DNA of 59,470 nt from Candidatus Kapaibacterium sp. (GTDB taxonomy: Bacteria; Bacteroidota; Ignavibacteria; Kapaibacteriales; UBA2268), in the NCBI GenBank assembly GCA_937927515.1, contig CALBDO010000020.1, forward strand, positions 1 to 59,470. Reading direction: 5' to 3'. The position numbers were made by a program, and so were the translations under genes. Under the pieces are notes generated by a model that searched no databases, was not told the origin of the DNA, and was given only the letters and a program-made list of their open reading frames with translations. Each line of letters starts with the position of its first letter. The first letter of the stretch is position 1. Of the stretch, positions 3,506 to 43,319 are shown one piece after another.

Positions 3506-6500
3506 TCATTTTGATAATTTGTTAATCTTTACATTTAGTTCTTTCCCGTCAATTTCGATTTTCACTGAATTTTCAATATTGTCTTTAAACTCCATTTTTT
3601 CGGCTAATGTTTCGGTAATTATATATTTCTTCATAGCGATAAGAGACTGATGAAAGTCATCGGGTACGCATGCATAAATTTCAATGCGGTCTGTCACTTC
3701 GAACCCAGAATCCTTGCGTAGTTTCTGTATGCGATTGATAAACTCTCGGGCTATTCCTTCGTTGCGGAGCTCCTCGCTGATATGAGTATCGAGAGCAACT
3801 GTGATGTTATTTTCTGTTCCAACAAGCCAACCTTCGAGTGTATCGCTGAATATTTCAACATCCTCGATTTGCAATACTTGTTTTGTTCCTTGCACATCGA
3901 CTTCGAGTGAGCCAGTGGTTTCGAGCTCGACGATTTCCCGATGCGACAAATTTTTAATTAATTCTGCAACTGCTTGTGTCAATTTGCCAAACTTCTTACC
4001 AATTACTTTGAAGTTTGGTTTTGCTTTTTTCTTTACAAATTCAGTATCGGCAGAGACATACTCTATTTCTTTGACATTGATTTCTTCCTTGATTACATCC
4101 TCGAAGTATTGTATGTTTCTCCGTTGCTGTGGGTTCAGAACTGGCACCAAAATTCTTTGCAAGGGCTGGCGAGTGCGAATTTTTGCTTTTTCCCGAAGAG
4201 AGCGCGTGATTTTAACGATTGTTTGGGCAAGCCACATTTTTTCTTCCAATTCGATATCGATAAGAGATTCGTCGTACACTGGAAAGGTAAGTAAGTGCAC
4301 AGATTCTGGCTGGTCTGGTTTGCGAAGTCTTCGATAAAGTACCTCCGAGAGAAATGGGGCAGCAGGAGCCATCAGAGCCGTGATATTCAAAAGCACATGG
4401 TGAAGCGTTTGATATGCAGAGAGTTTCTCTTCGTCGTTTTCCCCTTTCCAAAATCTTCTACGATTTCGCCTGATGTACCAATTTGAAAGTTCGTCGATAA
4501 CGAAAGATTGAATTGCTCTGAACGCTCGTGTGAGCTCGTACTCGTCCATATTTTTGCGAACTTCTCGGATTAATGTATTGAGTCGGGAGATAATCCATCG
4601 GTCGATTTCTAATCTACTTTCAACTGGTATCAATGATTCCTCGCCAGAGTATTTGTCTATATTAGCATAAAGAGAAAAGAAGAGGTAAGAATTGACCAAG
4701 GAGCGAAAGAAATCGGAAAGAATTGTTTTTTCAATGTCCTCTTCGTTGAAAAGAGTTGCTTTCCAAGGCGGATTGTTTACCAACAAGTACCAACGAACGG
4801 CGTCGGCGCTATACTTTTCCATAACTTCGAATGGGTCGATTACGTTGCCTTTGGACTTGGACATTTTTTCGCCTTTTTTGTCGAGTATCAACTCATTGAC
4901 AACGATACTTTTGAATGCTGGTTTGCCGAAGATTGCAGTGGCTATATTGTGTAGTGTATAGAACCAACCGCGAGTTTGGTCGACGCCCTCGGCTATGAAG
5001 TCAGCGGGGAAACTTTTCTCGAAAAGCTCTTGGTTTTCGAAAGGATAGTGAAATTGTGCAAAAGGCATAGCCCCAGAGTCGAACCATACGTCGATAACTT
5101 CGGCGACGCGTCTGAAAATTTTCCCGTTTCGTTCGAAATAGATTTTATCTACAAAGGGCTTGTGCAAGTCTATTTCGATATCCGAATCTTTTATATAAAT
5201 TCGATTTCCTCTCTCGTCGAGAAGAAATCCTTGCTTTAGTTCTTCTATAGAACCAACGGCAAAGCTTTCTGTTCCATCTTCGGAGACCCAGATTGGCAGT
5301 GGAGTACCCCAATATCTATCGCGAGATAAGGACCAATCCTTTACTTCAGCAAGCCAATTGCCGAAGCGACCAGTTCCAATCTCTGGTGGTTGCCAGAAGA
5401 TTTGCTTATTCAGTTCAATCATTTCGTCGCGGTATACGGGCGATTTAATGAACCAAGACTCGCGGGCGTAATACATTATTGGATTGCCAGTTCGCCAGCA
5501 ATGTGGGTAACTATGGACATAATCGAAACTTGCTTTGTAGACCTTGCCCATTTGCTTCAGTGCCTTGATGATGTCGCGGTCTGCTCCCTCTTCCTTGTGG
5601 TCGGGATAAACGAAATCCTTTATTGCACGACCAGCAAATTCGCCCATATCTTCGGTAAAATGTCCGTTTGGTGTGACGGGCTGAATAAATGGAATTTTAT
5701 ACTTTTTGTGCATTTCGTAGTCGTCTTCTCCAAAAGCTGGAGCAATGTGGACAATTCCGCTACCCTCTTCTGTGGAAACAAAATCGCCCGGTAATACTGT
5801 TAATGCCTGTGGATATGCTTGTTTGTCGATTTTGGCATACGGGAAAATCTGCTCGTATTCAGTCGAGACCAATTGCTTCCCTTTGAATTTCATAATCACT
5901 TGAGTTTCGCCTTCGAGCACCGATAGCCGACTCTCTGCGAGAACCAAGCGTAGGACTTCTTCTATATCTTTTACCTTTCGTTTGTTTTCGACAAGGACAT
6001 AATCGATATCCTCGCCCACTGCCATAGCAACATTTGCTAGCAGTGTCCAAGGTGTAGTTGTCCAAACTAACAAATGGGAGCCAACAATCTCTGGAATAGG
6101 TGAGTTGAGAATTTTGGGAATTATGAAAAGATTTGGGTCTCGTACTTCCTTGTAACCAAGAGAGAGCTCGTGACTGCTCAAAGGAGTTTCAATTGTCGGG
6201 GACTGAGGTACGACTTTGAAGCCTTTGTAGATAAGTCCTTTATCGAAGAATTGCTTCAATGCCCACCACAGAGACTCGATGTATTCGTTTGTGCAAGTCA
6301 CATATGCTTTGTCCATATCGAGCCAATAGCCCATACGTCGAGTCAAATCGCGCCAGCCTTGGTTCATTTCAATGTTGTAGTAGACAAACTCTTTGCACTT
6401 CTGATTGAACTTATCTATTCCGTACTTTTCAATATCTGCTTTGGTCTTGAAACCAAGCATTTGTTCTACGGCAAGTTCGACCGGTAGGCCGTGTGTGTCC

Positions 6501-6754
6501 CAACCAGCTTGACGACGGACGTAATAGCCTTGCATAGTTTTATAACGGCAAACGGTATCCTTTATGGTTCTTGCCATAAGGTGGTGCAAGCCGGGCTTGC
6601 CGTTCACAGTTGGTGGTCCTTCGTAAAAACTAAAAAATGGAGCATCTTTTCTAAGTTCAAGAGATTTTTCAAAGATTTTATTCTTCTCCCAAAATTCAAG
6701 AATTTCGTGCTCAAGTTCAGAAAAATTGTATTTCTCTGGAAGCGTTTCAAACAT
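3506..6754 (-). CDS. ileS: Isoleucyl-tRNA synthetase
   Basis: Charges tRNA-Ile. At about 1082 residues it is longer than E. coli IleS. The class I signature appears as GLHHL after NGKP (about residues 51-59) and the KMSKS loop as EKMSKSKGN. The NGKPG-HH form and length match the eukaryote-like second clade of bacterial IleS (family knowledge), which is often insensitive to mupirocin; that last point is inference. ATG 6754 (MFETLPEKYNF) is chosen because upstream codons to 6820 encode an atypical hydrophobic stretch. It is the first gene of the ileS-dksA/traR-lspA-rluD group and is divergent from the LD-carboxypeptidase gene. Confidence 0.97.
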   Translation of the reverse strand: MFETLPEKYNFSELEHEILEFWEKNKIFEKSLELRKDAPFFSFYEGPPTVNGKPGLHHLMARTIKDTVCRYKTMQGYYVRRQAGWDTHGLPVELAVEQMLGFKTKADIEKYGIDKFNQKCKEFVYYNIEMNQGWRDLTRRMGYWLDMDKAYVTCTNEYIESLWWALKQFFDKGLIYKGFKVVPQSPTIETPLSSHELSLGYKEVRDPNLFIIPKILNSPIPEIVGSHLLVWTTTPWTLLANVAMAVGEDIDYVLVENKRKVKDIEEVLRLVLAESRLSVLEGETQVIMKFKGKQLVSTEYEQIFPYAKIDKQAYPQALTVLPGDFVSTEEGSGIVHIAPAFGEDDYEMHKKYKIPFIQPVTPNGHFTEDMGEFAGRAIKDFVYPDHKEEGADRDIIKALKQMGKVYKASFDYVHSYPHCWRTGNPIMYYARESWFIKSPVYRDEMIELNKQIFWQPPEIGTGRFGNWLAEVKDWSLSRDRYWGTPLPIWVSEDGTESFAVGSIEELKQGFLLDERGNRIYIKDSDIEIDLHKPFVDKIYFERNGKIFRRVAEVIDVWFDSGAMPFAQFHYPFENQELFEKSFPADFIAEGVDQTRGWFYTLHNIATAIFGKPAFKSIVVNELILDKKGEKMSKSKGNVIDPFEVMEKYSADAVRWYLLVNNPPWKATLFNEEDIEKTILSDFFRSLVNSYLFFSLYANIDKYSGEESLIPVESRLEIDRWIISRLNTLIREVRKNMDEYELTRAFRAIQSFVIDELSNWYIRRNRRRFWKGENDEEKLSAYQTLHHVLLNITALMAPAAPFLSEVLYRRLRKPDQPESVHLLTFPVYDESLIDIELEEKMWLAQTIVKITRSLREKAKIRTRQPLQRILVPVLNPQQRRNIQYFEDVIKEEINVKEIEYVSADTEFVKKKAKPNFKVIGKKFGKLTQAVAELIKNLSHREIVELETTGSLEVDVQGTKQVLQIEDVEIFSDTLEGWLVGTENNITVALDTHISEELRNEGIAREFINRIQKLRKDSGFEVTDRIEIYACVPDDFHQSLIAMKKYIITETLAEKMEFKDNIENSVKIEIDGKELNVKINKLSK

Positions 6755-6905
6755 TTTTGGTCCCAAAAAATAGACAACAAAATTAATAATTATTAAGGAT
6801 TTAACAAAGTAAAAATGCAAGGACTTCGTTGTTTTTTGGTGAAATATTTAAAACAATCAAAATTTCTCTTTATTTTTTATTTTGCTTTTTGTAAATGGCA
6901 TTATT

Positions 6906-7955
6906 ATGAATTCGAGGAGGACTTTTCTTGGTATTTTTGGATTAAGTTTGTTCAGTTTCTCTTTTGAAAAAAGCATAAAAAAATATGTCCAAAATGAATC
7001 TACGAAACCGATGATTAAACCAAATGCATTAAGGAAGAACGACATTGTCGGGGTAGTTGCTCCTGGCACTGCTGTCCCTAGCCCAGACGATTTATTTCGT
7101 GCAAAGGAAATACTCGAAAAGTTGGAGCTACGCCCAAAGTTTGCTCAAAGTATTGCAAAAGGAAGTGGCTATCGCACTCGCTCGGCTCAAGAGCGAGTGG
7201 ACGAACTTATGGCTATGTTCCTCGATAGCGATGTTAGGGCAATTTTTACGATTCGCGGTGGTTATGGCTCTGCTCAGCTTTTGGACAAAATCGACTATTC
7301 GATTGTGCGAAACAATCCTAAAATCTTCCTTGGCTACAGCGATATAACTTCTTTGCATATTGCTTTAAACAAATTCGCCAATTTAGTTACATTTCACGGA
7401 CCAGTCCTTCTATCCCCATTTTCGCAATACACTTATGAATGTTTGTACACAATTTTATTTGGCATAAATAAAAAGCCAATAATTGAAAATCCAACTGAAA
7501 CCAATGCACTTCGGGTAAATCATTACATACGAACAATTAACCCCGGAAAAGCTACGGGAGTAGTCATCGGAGGCAATCTTTCCATTATTTCCTCTTTACT
7601 CGGTACACCATATCAATATCAATTCGACGATGCAATTCTTTTGCTGGAGGATGTCCAAGAGGAGCCCTATCGTATAGATAGAATGTTGAACCAACTCCGA
7701 TTGGCTGGCATCCTTCAAAGGGTTAATGGTTTGGTTTTTGGTGAATGCAGAGATTGTATTGCCACCTCGGCAAATGTTTGGGATTTGTCGCTTGGGGAGG
7801 TCCTCGATTATTATTTCTCGCCATTGCGAAAGCCATCCTGCTATGGATTGTGCATCGGGCACACACCCGACCAGGCGACTTTTGCCATCGGTGCAAGAGC
7901 AGAATTTGATGCAGATGCCGGCAAAATTGTTTACTTGGAAGATGTAGTTGTGTGA
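6906..7955 (+). CDS. LD-carboxypeptidase (peptidase S66 family), Tat-type signal
   Basis: Serine peptidase of the S66/LdcA family that trims the terminal D-Ala from murein tetrapeptides during peptidoglycan recycling or remodelling. The nucleophile is in GYSDIT (Ser145 from ATG 6906); downstream GEC and GHT segments supply the Glu and His positions. The N-terminus reads SRRTFLG followed by a hydrophobic run, a plausible twin-arginine export signal, which would place the enzyme outside the cytoplasm unlike E. coli LdcA. An in-frame TTG at 6882 is the only alternative start. The 3' end overlaps the convergent CPBP gene by 25 bases. Confidence 0.88.
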   Translation: MNSRRTFLGIFGLSLFSFSFEKSIKKYVQNESTKPMIKPNALRKNDIVGVVAPGTAVPSPDDLFRAKEILEKLELRPKFAQSIAKGSGYRTRSAQERVDELMAMFLDSDVRAIFTIRGGYGSAQLLDKIDYSIVRNNPKIFLGYSDITSLHIALNKFANLVTFHGPVLLSPFSQYTYECLYTILFGINKKPIIENPTETNALRVNHYIRTINPGKATGVVIGGNLSIISSLLGTPYQYQFDDAILLLEDVQEEPYRIDRMLNQLRLAGILQRVNGLVFGECRDCIATSANVWDLSLGEVLDYYFSPLRKPSCYGLCIGHTPDQATFAIGARAEFDADAGKIVYLEDVVV

Positions 7956-8818
7956 TTTACTTCAAATTTACAAGTGTATTTCTCTCGTAACATTTTAGAG
8001 ACAATCTCGGGGCAAGGAACAAACCTTGTGGAAACGATATAGGCTGATATCAATAGCAGAATAGTTGCAACCAAGCCACCCTCGATACCAAAACTTCCAC
8101 CAAACAATATTGGCTCGAGTAGTGTTATATTTGTTTCGAAAATTGATGTGCCAGTGTTTATCCCACTCATTGGAGAACCAAGTAGCAATCCTTGCCATAA
8201 GTTCCAACCAAAGTGAAATCCTATAGAAAGCCAAAGTAGACCAGTCTTTACATACATAAGTCCGAGGATAACCCCAGCAAGGAAGATATTTATAAATGCA
8301 ACGACACCAATGTTTGGGTTGAATATATGGGCAATGGCAAAGACAATCGAGCTGGCGAATATCCCCAAAACGTTGCCTTTCTTGTCGACAAGCAATTGAA
8401 AAAGAATACCACGAAAGATTAGTTCTTCGTTTAAGCTGAGGAAGCCAATATAATAAGCAGATTTCAGGAGTTTCCCAATGGATATTTCTATTGGCTTAAT
8501 TCCATGTATAAAAACCACAAAGAAGACTGGTAAAAACAAAAGAAACGGGAGAAAAAATCCAAAAATAAAATGTGGAAGAGTATATTTATTCGGGAGCAAA
8601 CCAAAAAAATGCCAAGGTCGATAATTTTTAAAGACAATCACAACAAAATTGCTTAGAAAAGAGCTAAATGCAATGGTTATTGGAATAAGCTCCGAGGAGG
8701 AAAGGTTTAGCGCATAGACAATATACAAAAGAAAAAACAAGGTCAAGGTAAAAATAATAAAAGCGCCCCACCAGTTATGTTTAGCAGCGACTTTCGATAG
8801 AATTTTAAAACTAACCAT
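7931..8818 (-). CDS. CPBP-family intramembrane metalloprotease (CAAX/ABI type)
   Basis: Polytopic membrane protein of 295 residues with the CPBP signature: NEELIFRG (Glu131, Glu132, Arg136), His164 in AHIFNPN, and HFGWN further on, which together form the metal site. Bacterial members are mostly uncharacterised, and some give immunity or process membrane substrates. The start overlaps the end of the upstream small HicB-like gene by 8 bases, so the two are probably co-translated. The 3' end overlaps the LD-carboxypeptidase gene on the other strand. The substrate is unknown. Confidence 0.85.
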   Translation of the reverse strand: MVSFKILSKVAAKHNWWGAFIIFTLTLFFLLYIVYALNLSSSELIPITIAFSSFLSNFVVIVFKNYRPWHFFGLLPNKYTLPHFIFGFFLPFLLFLPVFFVVFIHGIKPIEISIGKLLKSAYYIGFLSLNEELIFRGILFQLLVDKKGNVLGIFASSIVFAIAHIFNPNIGVVAFINIFLAGVILGLMYVKTGLLWLSIGFHFGWNLWQGLLLGSPMSGINTGTSIFETNITLLEPILFGGSFGIEGGLVATILLLISAYIVSTRFVPCPEIVSKMLREKYTCKFEVNHTTTSSK

Positions 8819-36317: not shown

Positions 36318-37649
36318 TCATTTTGAAAGTATTACAATCTCGGTTCGTCTATTTAATCGCCTACCAAATTCAGTCTCGTTTGGTGCGACTGGTTTTCGCT
36401 TTCCAAAGCCTACAGTTTTTATTCTGTTCGGGTCGATGCCACGAGAGACGAGATAGTTTTTAACTGCTTCTGCTCTCAACAAAGACAACCTGTCGTTGTA
36501 GGGATGAGTTCCTCTGTCGTCTGTATGCCCTTCGACAAGTATTGTAACATTTGGTTTATTCTTCATAAATTGATAGAGGACTTCAAGTTCTTTTACAGAT
36601 TCTGGCAATTCTGCACTATTTGTTTCGAATAATAAGTTCTCTATGATTAATTTCCTTCCCAGCTCTACAATTGGTATAGTTTTACGAACAATTTCTTTTC
36701 TTTCGGAGCTATAAATGGCAATATTGATAGAGTCGGGAATGGCTGGCAAGTCGGTCCGATATTTTATTGTATATAAATTAGTTAGTTGGGTTGAGAAGTT
36801 GTTTAAAATAGTCGAGAATGGATATTCTAAATCAAAATTGTAGCCGCGGGTCTTAGTAGAAATGGTTTTGTATTCATTTAATTTCGGTGGGGTGATTGTA
36901 AAGCATCGAATATCATTTTTATTTAAATAATCGATTATAGAATTTGTAGTCTCAAAAGTTACTCCGTCTCCCTTTTCGCCTAACTGATGATATGGGGCAT
37001 CGGTAATTAATACAACAACACGATTCGCCGACGGTCGGAATGAAATTCGTTCAGTTGCTCTCAACGCTTCCAGGGCATTTTCTTTTTCATCGCCACCTCC
37101 GAAAGCTTTCACAGAAGAAATCCAAGAGATAAAGTTGTTTACATTATCGGTAGGTTGGTATACCTTTTCAACAATATCGGAAAATAGAATTAACCCAATC
37201 CTATAGTCTATTCCTCTGCTTAAAAGGGAGGATAGGAATCGGGAAATATTGTTTTTTATTGCATCTATATATTTTTGCATTGAACCAGTAACATCGACAA
37301 TGAAGATAAAATCTACTGGTATCCTTTCGCGCACTGAAATTTTATTCACTGATATAACCTGTTTCTCGACACCATTTTCAGTTACAATGACATCCGAGGT
37401 AGTTAAAGTATCGAGTGGAAAGCCGCTGGAGCTAAAAGCCTCGACAACAAGGTTGATTTCGGGGAAGTGTGAAATATCTACATTTCTAATTATTAAAACT
37501 ACAGGTTTCTTCTCGGCTTTTATTTCTGTCGACCTAAGTAATTCTTGCACTTTTTTAATCGAATCGACCGAGGGCTCTTGGGATTGTAGACAATTGGCAG
37601 CTATTCCAAAAACTAATATAACCAGAATTAATCTTATCACGTTCAGCAT
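36318..37649 (-). CDS. Exported VWA-domain and OmpA-domain protein
   Basis: A 443-residue exported protein with a signal peptide (about 1-24), a beta-rich spacer, a VWA domain (about 112-290) whose MIDAS motif is DVTGSM, and a C-terminal OmpA/MotB peptidoglycan-binding domain with LLFETNSAELP, VEGHTDDRGTHPYN and NRRTEIVI. It would bind peptidoglycan in the periplasm and present a metal-dependent adhesion site to a partner. It lies directly downstream of a three-gene envelope operon but beyond a strong terminator, so it is probably transcribed separately. Confidence 0.88.
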   Translation of the reverse strand: MLNVIRLILVILVFGIAANCLQSQEPSVDSIKKVQELLRSTEIKAEKKPVVLIIRNVDISHFPEINLVVEAFSSSGFPLDTLTTSDVIVTENGVEKQVISVNKISVRERIPVDFIFIVDVTGSMQKYIDAIKNNISRFLSSLLSRGIDYRIGLILFSDIVEKVYQPTDNVNNFISWISSVKAFGGGDEKENALEALRATERISFRPSANRVVVLITDAPYHQLGEKGDGVTFETTNSIIDYLNKNDIRCFTITPPKLNEYKTISTKTRGYNFDLEYPFSTILNNFSTQLTNLYTIKYRTDLPAIPDSINIAIYSSERKEIVRKTIPIVELGRKLIIENLLFETNSAELPESVKELEVLYQFMKNKPNVTILVEGHTDDRGTHPYNDRLSLLRAEAVKNYLVSRGIDPNRIKTVGFGKRKPVAPNETEFGRRLNRRTEIVILSK

Positions 37650-37671
37650 AAACTGTGTCCCAAAATTTCAC

Positions 37672-37699
37672 AAAAAACCCTCTAACGAAAGTCAGAGGG
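37672..37699 (-). terminator. Rho-independent terminator of the 37724-43252 envelope operon
   Basis: On the minus strand, CCCTCTGAC and GTTAGAGGG form a 9-bp stem (one G-U pair) around a TTTC loop, followed by six T. It lies 25 bases after the stop of the last operon gene and about 23 bases before the VWA-OmpA start. Confidence 0.9.
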
Positions 37700-37723
37700 C
37701 CAAGTTGTTAGAGATTTTCTGCA

Positions 37724-39133
37724 TTACAAAGTCAATCTTAAAACAGGCGATATTAAAAAGAATGTTTTATTTTCAAATGGTTTAGCAGTCCTCAGGACTT
37801 GTGCAATTCGCCCCTCGACATAAAGCCAATTAAACAATGGCAAATAGACTTTGCCCAAAAAGATTTGATTAGAATATTGTAAACTAAAACCAAAGGGCCA
37901 TACCGATTGGTTCCGATACTCAAATTTAGCATAAATCCAGTCGGCAAACTCGCTGGGTTTATGTGTATTTAATACAATGCTCTCGTCTTCGGGCGTAGGA
38001 ATCAAGAAGTAATGTGTAAATTGAGAAGGTTTGAAATAAACCTCACGAACTTCGAAGTAATTTATTCCCAAATCAAATCGGAAATAGTTTTCTGGATTAG
38101 CTTTCGTCAGCCAGAGATTGTAAAAGAAAGTAAATTGCCCAGAGGAACGCAATAATGGAGCAACTTTGTATTCTTCCAAGTTTAGTTCGTTTATTTTCTT
38201 ATACGAAAAATACTTAGTTGGGTCGACACTTTCTTCTTTGAGAGAGGTCAATGGGAATTCCATATTTAGATGAACACCAAACTGAGGATGAAATGGCATA
38301 TGAAAATCCAATCCAGCTATTAACTTTCCGCCGGGACCTTGATTTAGTTTTTGACTTGGGACCCAACTAAAAATGGTACCTTTGTTGTTTAAACCACCTG
38401 AAATTCTGTATGCTCCACCGAGGTATGCATTGATTAGGTAAGGGATTTTGTCGCTTGTTTTCGAATCACGATTTACATACAAAGGTCTTTTTAAGGTGAT
38501 TTTGGAAGAGCCGGACGACCAGAAGACATATCCAATATCATCAGTACCGAGCGAATTTTTGAGCCAGAAGCCAGAATCTCCAAATTTTAAGGTTTGTTCA
38601 AAGAAAGACATTGTAAATGAATGAGTGACGTTTGTCGGTTCGAGATAATTTATAATTGCTTGTGCTTGAGAAGCAGTAACCGGGACCTCTGGGGGAATTT
38701 CGGAGTAGCAATAATCTCGTTTACCATCGACCCAAGTGTTTGGATTTGCAAATGGGTCGCCACCGGCGAGGATACTTAGCAATCTTTCGCTTAGATTGAC
38801 TTGCATCTCGGAAGCAGACATACTTACTTCGCCGCAAGTTAAGTGCAATAAATCGAATGGCTCGTATTCGTTTCGCCTCGGAGCGGCAAGGATTTCAATG
38901 TTTGTTTTGTTTAGTTTTGCTTCGTCGTACCCCAAAATACGGAAGGCTTGGTAGATTTGGATTTGCAAATCTGTTTCGCATACTTTCCATCGAGGGAAAT
39001 ACTTTCGGATTTCTGGGTCTATTGTTGTCATCGACTCTATGATTTCTCGGGGGTTTATGTTTGTTTGTTGCGTATAGCAAGAATAGTAAATAATCAAACC
39101 CAAAATTCCTATTAAAACAAATAACTTTTTCAT
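37724..39133 (-). CDS. Predicted outer-membrane protein, third gene of the envelope operon
   Basis: A 469-residue exported protein. The signal-like N-terminus ends at IIYYSC, which could be an atypical lipobox with the Cys at about residue 19 from ATG 39133. The second half has regularly spaced aromatic residues and alternating polar/hydrophobic strands (for example LINAYLGGAYRISGGL, FRFDLGINYFEVREVYF) and ends ISPVLRLTL, suggesting an outer-membrane barrel. The N-terminal domain has several Cys. An upstream GTG at 39145 is an alternative start. No family recognised. Confidence 0.7.
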   Translation of the reverse strand: MKKLFVLIGILGLIIYYSCYTQQTNINPREIIESMTTIDPEIRKYFPRWKVCETDLQIQIYQAFRILGYDEAKLNKTNIEILAAPRRNEYEPFDLLHLTCGEVSMSASEMQVNLSERLLSILAGGDPFANPNTWVDGKRDYCYSEIPPEVPVTASQAQAIINYLEPTNVTHSFTMSFFEQTLKFGDSGFWLKNSLGTDDIGYVFWSSGSSKITLKRPLYVNRDSKTSDKIPYLINAYLGGAYRISGGLNNKGTIFSWVPSQKLNQGPGGKLIAGLDFHMPFHPQFGVHLNMEFPLTSLKEESVDPTKYFSYKKINELNLEEYKVAPLLRSSGQFTFFYNLWLTKANPENYFRFDLGINYFEVREVYFKPSQFTHYFLIPTPEDESIVLNTHKPSEFADWIYAKFEYRNQSVWPFGFSLQYSNQIFLGKVYLPLFNWLYVEGRIAQVLRTAKPFENKTFFLISPVLRLTL

Positions 39134-39158
39134 ATCTCTTTTCACTATTGTTTACAAT

Positions 39159-40877
39159 TTAAAAATTAACAATAAAACGAACCATTGGTAGGAAGTAGCC
39201 TTTGTTCTCCCATTCTTCGGGTTTATCTTTAAATGGGACGAAGTATCCTCGACCATCAATTCTTAAAAAGAAAGTATTTTTAACTATTGGGACTTGCAAC
39301 CAAACGCCACCACCAATACCGCCATTGAAGTATTGTAGATTTGCTCCGAATGGGGTCGCAATATTTTGTGCCATAAAATCAATTCGGATTGAGATATCGC
39401 CTACTGCAACTTCGTCATACTTTTTAAAAAGAAGACTACGGCGAAAATCAGCAGTATCTAAATCGTAGAACCATTTCTCAACGAGGTAGAATGTTGCCCC
39501 TAAACCGAAGCGAAAGAGATAATCATTGTCTATTTGTGCTCCGAATGTATAATATGCCTGTGCGTTGCCACGTACGAGATAATCAAAATCGGAGTTTGCG
39601 ATTGCAATGCTAGGTTGGTACGTTAAAGTGTCGATGTTTCTTGATTTATATTTGCTTTCTTTAGCATCACCGACGACGTAACCAAAGTCGAAATGAAATA
39701 CACCGCTTTTTGGTATTACCTTAATTGGAAAATCGAAAGAGCCAGCCAGCCCAAAACTAGCAAAAGTAAGTCGGCGGTCGATATCGAACACATTTTTGCC
39801 CATGGAAGCCCAGCCATCTGTGGGTAAAATTATTCCAAGTTTAACATTCTGCCAAAGAGCGCTAACGGTTAATCTTTCGCTAAAGAAAGAAATGTAATTG
39901 ATACAATCTATTCCGTATTTGAGTTCTAATCCAAAATTAGGTAAGTCTGAATTTGAGTGCATATCTGGGTCGACAACAAAATTACCTGTTTCGTCGTAAT
40001 AACCGGGTTTTGGAAATTGTCGCCACAGTATCCAATCGGGGCTAATGATAACCTCGTTTTGTTTTAGTCCAAAATTAAATGGTTCGCCTTCGGAGACTCT
40101 GAGAATTTTCTGGACATCATAAGAAGTCAAATCTGCTTCGTTGAAAAAAGGACTTTCAGTATTACCAAATACTTTGCGGGCGAACCATTGTGGATTGCCG
40201 ATGCCTTGTGCTTCGATTGTTTTATTCTCGACATTTCTTTGGATAATTGAATTCATCATCAAATCGTATAAGTTATCTGCAGAGAAAGTATTATCTAAAC
40301 GGAAATTTTTCATTTCATCGTATGTATAAATGTCGTTTGGACCGATTGTTCTTAAACTTTTTTCAATATCCTGGGATTGTGAATAACTTATCAACAGTGC
40401 AATGATTAGAGAGGGTATTTCGCCGGGTTTTGTTCTTGTTGTTATCAAGTAGGCGTTTTCGGGCCTTTGCTCTGCAGCGCCCTGATATTTCAAGCGGTAA
40501 AACTGGTAGGCTTGCTCGAGGATGCTCGATTCCGGAGGGGTATAGCCGCGGTTTTCAATTGCAGTTGTAATTTCTCTTAAACTTTCGTCGGCTCGAACTC
40601 CATCCTCAATAATTGTAAGTATTTCATTTGGTATGGACTTTAAAATTTCCTCACTAATTTGGACACCTGCGGATTTCTGCTGTCGCAATTGAATTGCGCG
40701 CCGAATTTCTCCTATGTTTTTTAATCGATAAATTGATATGTTCCCGAATCGATAATTTGAGAACCTACTTAATATCTGCTCCATTTCGGTTCTTGTAGCT
40801 TCGTCTTGTGCTTTCAATGTACTAATGAATACAATTCCAAGGAACAATACAAAAAACCTCAATCTTCCTTTTCTCAT
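39159..40877 (-). CDS. Predicted outer-membrane protein, second gene of the envelope operon
   Basis: A 572-residue protein with a signal peptide (about 1-23), an alpha-helical, charged N-terminal region (about 25-230) and a C-terminal beta-strand-rich region with aromatic girdles (such as FRFGLGATFYLVEKWFYDL) that ends in ...RFIVNF, the terminal Phe expected of barrel proteins assembled by BamA. It lies between the single-TM periplasmic protein and another barrel-like gene, with short gaps of 56 and 25 bases. No family recognised. Confidence 0.72.
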   Translation of the reverse strand: MRKGRLRFFVLFLGIVFISTLKAQDEATRTEMEQILSRFSNYRFGNISIYRLKNIGEIRRAIQLRQQKSAGVQISEEILKSIPNEILTIIEDGVRADESLREITTAIENRGYTPPESSILEQAYQFYRLKYQGAAEQRPENAYLITTRTKPGEIPSLIIALLISYSQSQDIEKSLRTIGPNDIYTYDEMKNFRLDNTFSADNLYDLMMNSIIQRNVENKTIEAQGIGNPQWFARKVFGNTESPFFNEADLTSYDVQKILRVSEGEPFNFGLKQNEVIISPDWILWRQFPKPGYYDETGNFVVDPDMHSNSDLPNFGLELKYGIDCINYISFFSERLTVSALWQNVKLGIILPTDGWASMGKNVFDIDRRLTFASFGLAGSFDFPIKVIPKSGVFHFDFGYVVGDAKESKYKSRNIDTLTYQPSIAIANSDFDYLVRGNAQAYYTFGAQIDNDYLFRFGLGATFYLVEKWFYDLDTADFRRSLLFKKYDEVAVGDISIRIDFMAQNIATPFGANLQYFNGGIGGGVWLQVPIVKNTFFLRIDGRGYFVPFKDKPEEWENKGYFLPMVRFIVNF

Positions 40878-40933
40878 ATTTTATCACCATTTGATAAACA
40901 AATAATTGCTTTCATATAAAATTATTTATTTTA

Positions 40934-43252
40934 TTATCGCCTCTTTGTGGGGGTTGTTCTTTTGGCTCCTCTTTCTCGCTCGTAAAGGAATGATACACTA
41001 AGATTTGCTGTTCTTTGCGAGGTCTTTCCATTGCAAAGATTTCTTGCGTTTGCAGTAACTGGAAATCTAACTACACCACTCAATTCGTCTTGAGTTCTTG
41101 GTATTAGTGCTGTATTAACAACGAAATCAAAAGTAATGGAGTAGCCATTTTCTTCTTTGTCGATTATTGGGTCCGATGCCAGGTCCACGATACCTTCGAT
41201 ACCGCCTTCAAACTTGGGTTTTCCAATGCTTAATGAAACTTCTGGCTTGGTTTTCCCGCCAGAACCATCATCTGGTTCAATAACTGTCACATTTATGACC
41301 TGAATTCTGATTTTGTTGCCAGTTTGGGAACGTTTTTCAGATTTTGTGGCAAGGTTTATCTTTGGTTCATCTTGTTTGATTTCATTTTCTGTTAGTGGCA
41401 GCAATTCGACTTCTTTGCCAGTGATTGGCTGAATCCACCAGATTTTTGCATAAAGTTTATTAGCGCGGCAATCGAGGAAGACTTTTTGTTCTGGTGGGAT
41501 TGACAAACCAACATATGGAGGCTTTTGCTGGTCTAAATCCGTGGCAAGGTAGATTCTGAATTGGTCGGACTTGATTTTTGCCCCGGAGTTCGGAATTACA
41601 CTAAAGTAAATGTTGTATCCATAGTAAGCGCTTGCCAATTTTGATTTAATCAGCTGGGCACTTTCCTCTGTCAGGCCAGTTTTAAATATTTCCAATTCCG
41701 AGTATTCCGTTTTTGTTCGTCCAGCAAGTCTATGGGTAATTTCAATTTTGTATTTTCCGGGGTTTAGTGGTCTCTCTACAATGCCACGATAGTATCGGTT
41801 ACCGCCGACGACGGGTTTCGAAACGATTGTACCAGCAAATTCATCTTCGCCACGACAAATAACTTTCGCTACCAAGGAGCCGGACTCATCTAAAACTCGT
41901 CCTTCGACTAAATTTGCATTAGTCCCTTGGTACGGGCTAATAGTAAAGCTAAAAACTGGTTCTACCTCGTCGAATTGTGCAAAATATGGTTCGATTGTAA
42001 TTGTGGGCTCGGAGACAGAGGGTTTAGGTGTTATCACACGAACATCAAAGGCGATACTGTTTGCATTTTGTGGGAACAAAACAGAAAGACCAGGAGTTAA
42101 AAGCTTTGTGATGTAACCATAAAGTTTAATTTTACTAATAGTTTCGACAGCATTTTCTTCTCCAGCAGCAATTTTGACAGAATTTTCTAACATCTGGTCA
42201 AATTTTTCTATGTCGTCTGTCGATTGTGCATTCAATAGCAATTCGGATGGCGGTAGATTATATTTGATTAGTCGGGTTTCCAATTCTTTCTTAACTTTGT
42301 TGAGGTCCTTTACAGTCAAGGTTACAGTTCCAATATTTATTCTTGTTTCTTCTGGAATTTCTCGTCCTGGAGTATCTTTGACGACGCCAAGAATTCTGTT
42401 GGTACGGGAGTAAATTCGTAACTTATACCATCCTGCTCTGTTAGGTGGTTGAAAATTAACAATAAAGACCCTTTTCTTCAAATCTGCAAGGACGTTGGTT
42501 CCCCTTTGGGCAGAAATCTCTGGTGAATAAAAGAATACACTATCTTCGTTGTTGTTGGGTGAATATGGTGGACCAATAGCGACGTGCAAATTTTTTGGAT
42601 AATACGGTTCAAGATGTTGTAGAGATAGGTTGTTTAAATTATCCGTCAATGTTTTTTCAATTTGTGGATAATCAAGGTTAAGTTTCCTAAGAGATAGAAA
42701 TTCCCAGGTAGTTCCATCGGAGGCTGTGATTGTTTGTCCAGGCTGTAGTTTTGTAAAATCAATCCCTTTTTTACGAATTTCATCTTCGGTTAAGAATGGA
42801 GGCGCATTCAATGGGTCTTGGCTTGGATTGTAAAAAATTTGGTATTCAATTTCTTGAACGTTGGCAAGTTTTGCTGCAACTTTCATTCGTTCAAAGTATT
42901 CTTTTTCGCTTTCCCCTTCCTTGCGTTTCAATTCTGCGGACACATCGGTAACTCCAACCTCAACAATATATTTTCGAGACGACTTTATGTCGGCACCCAT
43001 AATTTCTCGCATATTGATACCCGGAGGTGGTATGGTAATTTCGTCCTGCGGTCGAGTATTTATTCCCTCTGTGCCCGAACCCGATTGAAGTTGCGAAAGA
43101 ATACTCTCTACTATTCGCATAGTTTCTCGCTGTTTCTTCAATAATCCTTCTTCTGCTTCGTCTCGCTCTACAATAATAATAAGCAATTCAAGTACGACAG
43201 CAAGGTACAAGATAAAATAAACTTTTCCGGCACCGCCACCTTTAGCAGACAT
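40934..43252 (-). CDS. Large periplasmic protein with one TM helix carrying a Glu; GldM/PorM-like architecture
   Basis: A 772-residue protein with a short Gly/Lys-rich cytoplasmic start, one TM helix (about 11-28) containing Glu22 in its middle, a short coiled coil (about 30-55), and about 700 periplasmic residues of mostly beta-rich, Ig-like segments. An acidic residue inside a single TM helix recalls MotB, ExbD and TolR, while the long multidomain periplasmic part recalls GldM/PorM of the type IX secretion motor. I see no sequence motif that proves either. No GldL-like partner is adjacent. It is the first gene of the operon, behind a good Bacteroidota-type promoter. Confidence 0.72.
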   Translation of the reverse strand: MSAKGGGAGKVYFILYLAVVLELLIIIVERDEAEEGLLKKQRETMRIVESILSQLQSGSGTEGINTRPQDEITIPPPGINMREIMGADIKSSRKYIVEVGVTDVSAELKRKEGESEKEYFERMKVAAKLANVQEIEYQIFYNPSQDPLNAPPFLTEDEIRKKGIDFTKLQPGQTITASDGTTWEFLSLRKLNLDYPQIEKTLTDNLNNLSLQHLEPYYPKNLHVAIGPPYSPNNNEDSVFFYSPEISAQRGTNVLADLKKRVFIVNFQPPNRAGWYKLRIYSRTNRILGVVKDTPGREIPEETRINIGTVTLTVKDLNKVKKELETRLIKYNLPPSELLLNAQSTDDIEKFDQMLENSVKIAAGEENAVETISKIKLYGYITKLLTPGLSVLFPQNANSIAFDVRVITPKPSVSEPTITIEPYFAQFDEVEPVFSFTISPYQGTNANLVEGRVLDESGSLVAKVICRGEDEFAGTIVSKPVVGGNRYYRGIVERPLNPGKYKIEITHRLAGRTKTEYSELEIFKTGLTEESAQLIKSKLASAYYGYNIYFSVIPNSGAKIKSDQFRIYLATDLDQQKPPYVGLSIPPEQKVFLDCRANKLYAKIWWIQPITGKEVELLPLTENEIKQDEPKINLATKSEKRSQTGNKIRIQVINVTVIEPDDGSGGKTKPEVSLSIGKPKFEGGIEGIVDLASDPIIDKEENGYSITFDFVVNTALIPRTQDELSGVVRFPVTANARNLCNGKTSQRTANLSVSFLYERERGAKRTTPTKRR

Positions 43253-43288
43253 TTTTACACCTTTTTATAAATTCTTGATTAACTTTTG

Positions 43289-43319
43289 CAAAATTAACTA
43301 ACAACTATTATAAATCAAA
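43289..43319 (-). promoter_or_regulatory. Bacteroidota-type promoter (TTTG-N19-TAATTTTG)
   Basis: On the minus strand, TTTG (43319-43316), a 19-base spacer and TAATTTTG (43296-43289) match the primary Bacteroidota consensus exactly. The -7 box ends 36 bases before the ATG of the 772-residue envelope protein. Confidence 0.7.

Follow-up and report, generated by a model that had tools for sequence, protein, structure and literature searches.

Results and Discussion

The Gene Block M-O1-O2-V

The DNA analyzed here (the window) comprises 59,470 nt of Candidatus Kapaibacterium sp. (GCA_937927515.1, contig CALBDO010000020.1, positions 1-59,470 of the forward strand). In the list of open reading frames four genes, designated M, O1, O2 and V, occupy positions 36318-43252 on the minus strand (Table 1). 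A previous sequence-only reading had described a contiguous minus-strand block, and all four reading frames are present as stated there; the block may not be a single operon, as a terminator-like hairpin splits O2 from V. The 11 pairs of this hairpin gave a z-score of -4.07, and 1 of 200 shuffled sequences folded at least as well.

Table 1: Features of the gene block within the window.
Feature	Position	Strand	Basis
M: 772 aa, inner-membrane/periplasmic, proposed motor axle	40934..43252	-	open reading frame
TM helix of M, residues 8-29, within model helix 8-57	43166..43231	-	hydropathy and model
Glu22 codon of M	43187..43189	-	sequence; invariant in 36 rows
C-terminal part of M, residues 397-760, ~3 Ig-like beta domains	40973..42064	-	secondary structure of model; Ig-like matches 413-758
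O1: 572 aa, secreted, probable outer-membrane protein	39159..40877	-	open reading frame; homologues downstream of M; barrel inferred
O2: 473 aa from GTG start, secreted, probable outer-membrane protein	37724..39145	-	open reading frame; distant O1 similarity
Terminator-like hairpin between O2 and V	37676..37701	-	11 pairs; folding compared with shuffles
V: 443 aa, VWA-OmpA, probable peptidoglycan-binding anchor	36318..37649	-	PF00092/PF13519 and PF00691
VWA domain of V, residues 113-273	36831..37313	-	PF00092
OmpA-like domain of V, residues 340-434	36348..36632	-	PF00691, E 1e-23

The earlier description of V as a VWA-OmpA protein was correct, as Pfam assigns both domains. V shares the OmpA-like domain with anchors of the PorE, Pal and OmpA type; it differs from them in its VWA domain and in scores far under the respective cut-offs (80.6 against 600 bits for PorE and 80.7 against 125.35 for Pal). 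Judged from a signal-like N-terminal stretch and their sequence character, O1 and O2 are probably outer-membrane proteins. Two predicted outer-membrane proteins had also been named in the sequence-only reading; neither gave a convincing family match. O1 matched nothing in Pfam or NCBIfam up to E 1, O2 gave a weak match to DUF6850 (E 0.008) under the cut-off, and neither matched PorP/SprF in these collections up to E 1. The two proteins cross-match in BLAST, which indicates a distant similarity. Lipidation of O2 is not a feature of the family, since of 64 orthologues only 4 have a lipobox-like Cys. In Pfam and NCBIfam searches confined to these block genes, O1, O2 and V did not match the GldK or GldN (PorK, PorN) families.

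Of 100 genomes of the order, the own genome counted, 97 encode M. The gene order is strongly conserved in relatives, a check that the sequence-only reading had proposed: of the 80 named loci, 60 keep M-O1-O2-V, and in 9 of the remaining 20 M lies less than 2 kb from a contig end. O1 and O2 follow M closely, with median gaps of 36 and 33 bases (59 loci). A gene of ~1,170 aa located upstream of M in eight loci was considered as PorU and dropped; its N-terminus reads like ribonucleotide reductase.

Membrane Helix and Periplasmic Arm of M

In M a 19-residue Kyte-Doolittle mean above 1.6 is reached in residues 6-32 only, and the AlphaFold2 model of M (pLDDT 84) contains a single helix at residues 8-57. 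Both enclose Glu22, so this residue is placed inside the membrane span; the proposal that the 772-residue M carries Glu22 in its only TM helix was thereby borne out. The Glu22 column is invariant in all 36 rows of an alignment obtained from whole-protein searches, and 30 of the 45 invariant columns of M fall in residues 1-72. Glu also occupies this position in 80 of 80 named loci. These loci were found by peptide patterns from the Glu22 stretch of M, one of which holds the Glu, and their reading frames were picked with the same motif; consequently, this count is no independent test and was not used as evidence. Among distant M-type proteins the acidic residue is lost. One of nine aligned short M proteins carries Gln at the Glu22 position and a tenth carries Asn, and none of the 19 M2 proteins among those listed has an acidic residue at this place. 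The suggestion of the acidic TM residue as a motor hallmark is not supported in these distant members.

Behind the N-terminal TM helix follows a multi-domain region, presumably on the periplasmic side. In the model it consists of an alpha/beta part, a helical part and approximately three Ig-like domains. The latter lie in the C-terminal half, in agreement with Ig-like structure matches at 413-758, and the long Ig-like domains expected from the sequence were thus recovered in the predicted structure.

A relation of M to GldM, MotB, ExbD or TolR was not detectable in family scans, hhalign comparisons and shuffles of the TM region, contrary to what had been suggested. M matched no family in Pfam or NCBIfam up to E 1, and the GldM family was absent among the hmmscan matches of 62 M members. 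Comparison of M with GldM by hhalign gave a probability of 1%. For the TM region, the score of M1 against GldM was reached by 188 of 200 shuffles and that of pooled M by 4 of 200. A GldM model made from 29 fetched rows likewise produced nothing significant in hmmsearch, so an identification of M as GldM by sequence was rejected. As to the fold, the rows listed by Foldseek and VIA comprise various kinds of Ig-like chains, which demonstrates only Ig-like domains, and GldM/PorM domains D1-D4 were not among the structure-search matches listed for M, all of which were filled by Ig-like chains. The best matches of the M and L profiles in a PDB sequence search had E 0.2 or worse. Within the M group, a short-M model recovered the own-genome M at E 2.2e-8. 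The similarity of M1 and M2 rests on a 14-column motif, the same motif that was used to choose the M2 genes.

L, a Candidate Ring Partner

A candidate for the GldL-like partner sought elsewhere in the genome is L, a membrane protein encoded away from the M block and present in the same genomes as M. L contains a two-TM hairpin with a Glu in the second helix, which is conserved in 57 of 57 sequences from four subfamilies. It is this Glu of L, unlike Glu22 of M, that is kept in every sequence examined. L1 comprises ~450 aa with four hydrophobic segments, of which the second and third are set far apart, a MotA-like plan. The model of L was poor (pLDDT 55) and served solely to place the helices.

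The same 33 of 247 genomes of the phylum were matched by each of four sequence models, for L1, M, short L and short M. In the own genome L1 is encoded on contig C6, separate from that of M, and L2 and M2 are adjacent with L2 first. Among the 80 named loci, six have L next upstream of M, one of them with a small called reading frame in between. Outside the order, 13 genomes of the class carry both proteins, and in 10 of these short L is followed by short M; five of these loci carry weakly O1- or O2-like genes downstream (E 7e-6 to 9e-3). L2 touches or overlaps the M2 gene in 19 of 20 loci, including that of the own genome. In 10 of 18 loci L1 adjoins a gene for a protein of 1,776-1,951 aa; the single one scanned encodes a C25 peptidase with PorU matches below the cut-off. 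The own-genome L1 has no C25 gene alongside.

The L hairpin was compared with that of GldL in a test devised after the likeness had been seen by eye, with all stretches cut to the hairpin and the shuffles cut alike. L2 gave P 6.9e-6 and pooled L gave P 6.3e-5. Under either of two shuffling schemes 0 of 250 shuffles reached the real score, and shuffles preserving the hydrophobic pattern fell short of the pooled L score. The rows for this test had been chosen by a motif demanding GA and Glu, which dropped 5 of 57; a repeat on all 57 rows had the same outcome, with 0 of 200 shuffles reaching the score for L2 or for pooled L. Taken alone, L3 and short L were weak, at P 0.005 and P 0.03, respectively, and the L1 score was reached by 38 of 250, 26 of 250 and 37 of 200 shuffles. 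The whole L1 profile against whole GldL gave P 0.09 and a probability of 0.6%. A plain GldL HMM was not significant against the L proteins, and the GldL model was absent among the matches of 21 L members. The link to GldL runs via L2, whose partner is M2 rather than M.

A Proposed GldLM-Like Motor

We favor the interpretation that M and L1 constitute a GldLM-like ion-driven motor which acts on outer-membrane proteins and possibly powers type IX secretion, with a probability of roughly 55%. M would be the single-helix axle of this inner-membrane motor, and the polytopic L1 from a separate locus would be its ring partner. In the resulting complex, ions passing the invariant Glu in the L hairpin would set M in motion, perhaps by rotation, and the long periplasmic arm of M would transmit the force toward the outer membrane. 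There O1 and O2 would receive it, and V may fasten the assembly to peptidoglycan. The motor would most likely serve the traffic of outer-membrane proteins, with the type IX translocon as a possible load.

M shares with the M subunit of GldLM/PorLM a single N-terminal TM helix and a long arm with Ig-like domains, and L shares with GldL/PorL the two-TM hairpin with an invariant Glu in the second helix. As in GldLM/PorLM, L stands upstream of M in several lineages, and the own genome encodes SprA and many sorting-tail proteins. In contrast to GldLM/PorLM, M has no detectable relation to GldM, L1 possesses two extra hydrophobic segments in its ~450 aa, L1 and M of the own genome are encoded on separate contigs, and M is followed by O1, O2 and V, none of which matches GldK or GldN.

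Relation to Type IX Secretion and Alternative Readings

SprA was detected in all 60 genomes of the order that were searched, including the own genome (contig C2), which also gave 78 matches to the type IX sorting tail (TIGR04183, E 0.001). The GldL family model TIGR03513 matched 0 of these 60 genomes in a search run without a positive control genome; elsewhere it matched 61 of 247 genomes of the phylum. Outside the order, 28 of 41 SprA-positive genomes of the class are without L and M. By these models 98 of the 190 SprA-positive genomes lack GldL as well as L/M, and L/M occurs in another 33. L and M are therefore not tied to SprA, and the link of the M block to type IX secretion is possible by association only. 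A GldL match within the 33 L/M genomes occurs in G108 alone, where it is under the cut-off and on a contig other than that of its L. This near-exclusion of GldL and L/M was not used as an argument, since so many SprA-positive genomes have neither. In F. johnsoniae, the GldM residue E31 was dispensable and the GldL residue E49 essential for gliding (PMC8986121), and a 2022 review describes GldLM as exclusive to Bacteroidetes (PMC9389320).

The missing tie to SprA also fits an ion-driven motor of L and M that serves a separate outer-membrane task, such as surface movement or transport through O1 and O2, instead of type IX secretion. The motor seems to bring its own outer-membrane load, because O1 and O2 closely follow M and because short M, too, has O1- or O2-like genes behind it in five loci, and the L2-M2 pair could serve as the type IX motor instead. 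Yet the type IX system of the order would then want a recognized motor, as no GldL was matched in the 60 genomes, all of which have SprA. We regard this separate task as possible, at about half the probability of the GldLM-like motor.

Alternatively, M might play a passive part in the periplasm, as a scaffold or an assembly factor for O1 and O2; L would then have another function, and its hairpin would resemble that of GldL by convergence. Ig-like domains are common in scaffolds, M lacks a detectable relation to motor subunits, and L1 by itself fails the GldL test. A scaffold is nevertheless unlikely in view of the shared occurrence of L and M, the repeated adjacency of their family members, the crowding of invariant M columns at the N-terminus and a pooled L score beyond that of shuffles keeping the hydrophobic pattern.

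With the 5:2 motors MotAB, ExbBD and TolQR the pair shares the combination of a polytopic partner and a single-helix partner with an acidic membrane residue, and L1 has a MotA-like count of hydrophobic segments; the long M arm with Ig-like domains sets it apart. That M and L form a distant ExbB/ExbD, TolQ/TolR or MotA/MotB system is highly improbable, for beyond the four-segment plan of L1 it draws on a weak ZorA match in 1 of 21 L members (E 0.0042) and on ExbB and TolQ chains found by Foldseek with the poor L model at E 2 to 2.8 only, where nothing reached E 0.001, whereas MotA_ExbB, ExbD and MotB were absent among the Pfam matches listed at E 0.1 for 62 members of M and 21 of L.

Returning to the GldLM-like motor, a wider and clearly more speculative proposal, which we consider rather less probable than a separate task, is that the Kapabacteria and part of their class possess a second, undescribed family of trans-envelope ion motors. 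It would include at least two sets, L1-M and L2-M2, besides a third L that many genomes of the order carry, and one of the sets would replace GldLM as the driver of type IX secretion. L1, in which a GldL-like hairpin ends a MotA-like four-segment chain, would then bridge GldL and MotA/ExbB, and the set of 5:2-type motors would be widened.

The M block may, as far as its sequences tell, energize protein secretion in a way not recognized so far. By these models most SprA-positive genomes contain either L/M or neither system, which raises the question of how type IX secretion is driven in lineages without GldL; to this question the present analysis adds named genes and a named residue, the Glu of L, from a motor-like pair without family names that occurs in nearly every genome of the order.

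Conservation of M and of the M-O1-O2-V Block

The window represents an entire contig of a 2.39-Mb draft genome (41 contigs, 98% complete). An ORF check confirmed the contiguous minus-strand block claimed by the sequence-only reading. The proposed motor axle M, the probable outer-membrane proteins O1 and O2, and V are encoded by four consecutive genes with spacings, calculated from the coordinates, of 56 (M/O1), 13 (O1/O2) and 74 bases (O2/V). The last gap contains a terminator-like hairpin, and thus V may be transcribed at least partly apart from M-O1-O2. The Pfam scan also bore out the VWA and OmpA domains of V. Scans of Pfam and NCBIfam up to E 1 matched M and O1 to no family, and O2 solely and weakly to DUF6850 (E 0.008).

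Of 100 genomes from the order Kapaibacteriales, 97 have M, its own genome counted; of the 86 good-quality ones, 85 do. A peptide-pattern scan yielded 140 stretches encoding M-like sequence, from which 80 named loci were kept, some being near-duplicates or derived from a single assembly. The best match among them was CP058732.1 from Candidatus Kapaibacterium sp. Ch6. The records are labeled Kapabacteria or Kapaibacterium (27), Ignavibacteria or a variant (25), and otherwise (28: Bacteroidetes, Chlorobiota, "bacterium" and a few apparently misassigned names such as Desulfobulbaceae, Bradyrhizobiaceae and Chloroherpeton). Using models of all four proteins, the gene order was found to be kept in relatives, namely in 60 of the 80 loci, with M divided into two ORFs in one. 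The remaining 20 comprise six loci with M and the membrane protein L (see below) without O1/O2, nine with M less than 2 kb from a contig end, four without a recognised V and one without a recognised O2. Genes flanking the block are common only within subgroups of loci.

In an alignment of 36 rows from whole-protein searches (mean column identity 36%), 30 of the 45 invariant columns of M fall in residues 1–72, including Glu22. Position 22 is also E in all 80 named loci, but these were retrieved with patterns from that very stretch. The structure of M was predicted with a pLDDT of 84 and a pTM of 0.52.

Features of the L-M system and neighboring elements
Feature	Location	Coordinates	Strand	Remark
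Terminator-like hairpin	window, between O2 and V	37676-37701	minus	11 pairs, strong
M, predicted structure	residues of M	8-57; to about 310; to 392; to 760		one helix; alpha/beta part; helices; about three Ig-like domains
L1 ORF	own genome, contig C6 (L070)	7093-8451
L2	own genome, contig C14 (L275)	6264-7058	minus	second L-M pair
M2	own genome, contig C14 (L275)	4772-6274	minus	second L-M pair
Long gene beside L1	locus L072	1439-7180	minus	one such protein scanned, a C25 peptidase

A Candidate Membrane Partner of M

A GldL-family model matched none of 60 genomes of the order, in a scan where no control genome gave a match either, and 61 of 247 genomes of the phylum sample. In loci L041, L049 and L053 an M copy is preceded by a gene for a membrane protein with a hairpin that, by eye, is reminiscent of GldL. 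Matches to its family, L, occur in 98 of 100 Kapaibacteriales genomes, including the own genome, where the proposed search for a GldL-like partner led to the candidate L1. L1 contains four hydrophobic segments, the last of which carries Glu348, invariant in 21 rows. In 13 of 18 loci L1 has a neighbor on the opposite strand, separated from it by small ORFs in two. In the own genome this neighbor (L070, 8839-10194, plus strand) is an L-lysine 6-transaminase according to NCBIfam, and a functional link to L1 is not evident.

Of the 247 phylum-sample genomes, the L1 model matched 33, and the models of M, short L and short M matched the identical set by handle: 20 from the order and 13 of the 41 others of the class Ignavibacteria. 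Short L (about 160–440 aa) and short M (about 190–430 aa) are neighbors, L first, in 10 of these 13; L and M lie apart in the other three. The short-M model matched the own M at E 2.2e-8, relating the two. The Glu22 position of short M is E in eight of nine aligned sequences and Q in one; a tenth has N. Downstream of the short pair, several loci encode proteins that look secreted (about 360, 505, 460 and 500 aa), some of them with a weak likeness to O1; upstream, several encode one of about 520 aa, and the single example scanned is DUF2254-like.

L2 and M2 genes touch or overlap in 19 of 20 loci fetched, including that of the own genome. M2 shares the YFILYL helix motif and has a helix core without an acidic residue; none of the 19 M2 listed has one at the Glu22 position. 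A third L subfamily, L3, of about 320–420 aa (e.g., locus L279, 6670-7647, plus strand; also loci L270, L274 and L296–L298) gave no M-like neighbor with the motif used. Literature listings, with most subscription journals outside their coverage, showed no description of the L/M family; for Ignavibacteri with GldM they gave one paper, on oral microbiota, and for Kapabacteria with type IX secretion one on hot-spring enzymes.

Relation to GldL and GldM

A GldL hairpin profile was built from 30 fetched sequences. The L2 hairpin matched it with P 6.9e-6 and the pooled L hairpin, its Glu falling on that of GldL, with P 6.3e-5. The real score was attained by 0/250 shuffles of columns keeping the hydrophobic pattern and by 0/250 local shuffles. 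Repeating the comparison on all 57 L rows without motif choice gave P 1.3e-5 for L2 and 1e-4 for the pooled hairpin (0/200 shuffles for each). L3 (P 0.005) and short L (P 0.03) were weak alone. For the L1 hairpin alone, 38/250, 26/250 and 37/200 shuffles attained the real score, and the whole L1 profile was not significant (P 0.09). The likeness of M to GldM considered in the sequence-only reading failed, since the real score was attained by 188/200 shuffles for the M family proper (M1), 46/200 for M2 and 4/200 for pooled M. L2 and pooled L pass against GldL; L1 by itself does not, nor does M against GldM. Consequently, L is probably, judged from sequence, a remote relative of GldL through L2, the L subfamily closest to it. 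The M1-M2 likeness, a 14-column motif that also served to pick M2, proves little.

Of L and M, it is L that carries the residue conserved throughout: the Glu column of its hairpin is E in 57/57 rows. This agrees with F. johnsoniae (PMC8986121), where GldL E49 is essential for gliding and GldM E31 dispensable.

Motor or Secretion

The type IX translocon protein SprA was found in 60/60 genomes of the order, and the own genome has 78 matches to the type IX sorting tail. A gene for 1,776–1,951 aa adjoins L1 in 10 of 18 loci (small ORF between in one) and is absent beside the own L1; in the one such protein scanned, a C25 peptidase, the matches to PorU stay below the cut-off and that to the sorting tail falls just short of it. 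Genome G035 has SprA and M on one strand, with M following at a distance of about 1 kb. SprA occurs in 33/33 L/M genomes, yet also in most of the sample. L/M is lacking in 28 of 41 SprA-positive class genomes outside the order, and 98 of 190 SprA-positive genomes have, by these models, neither L/M nor GldL. Therefore, a motor is better supported than a role in secretion.

PMC12635249 describes outer-membrane proteins tethered to a GldJ-GldK-GldN track that moves; its main text contains none of the words Kapabacteria, Ignavibacteri and Chlorobi. Beyond the statement that L and M belong together, we infer each step of the following mechanism. L would form a ring in the inner membrane with an M dimer as the axle within it. 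The arm of M would extend to O1/O2 at the outer membrane, and V would provide the tie to peptidoglycan.
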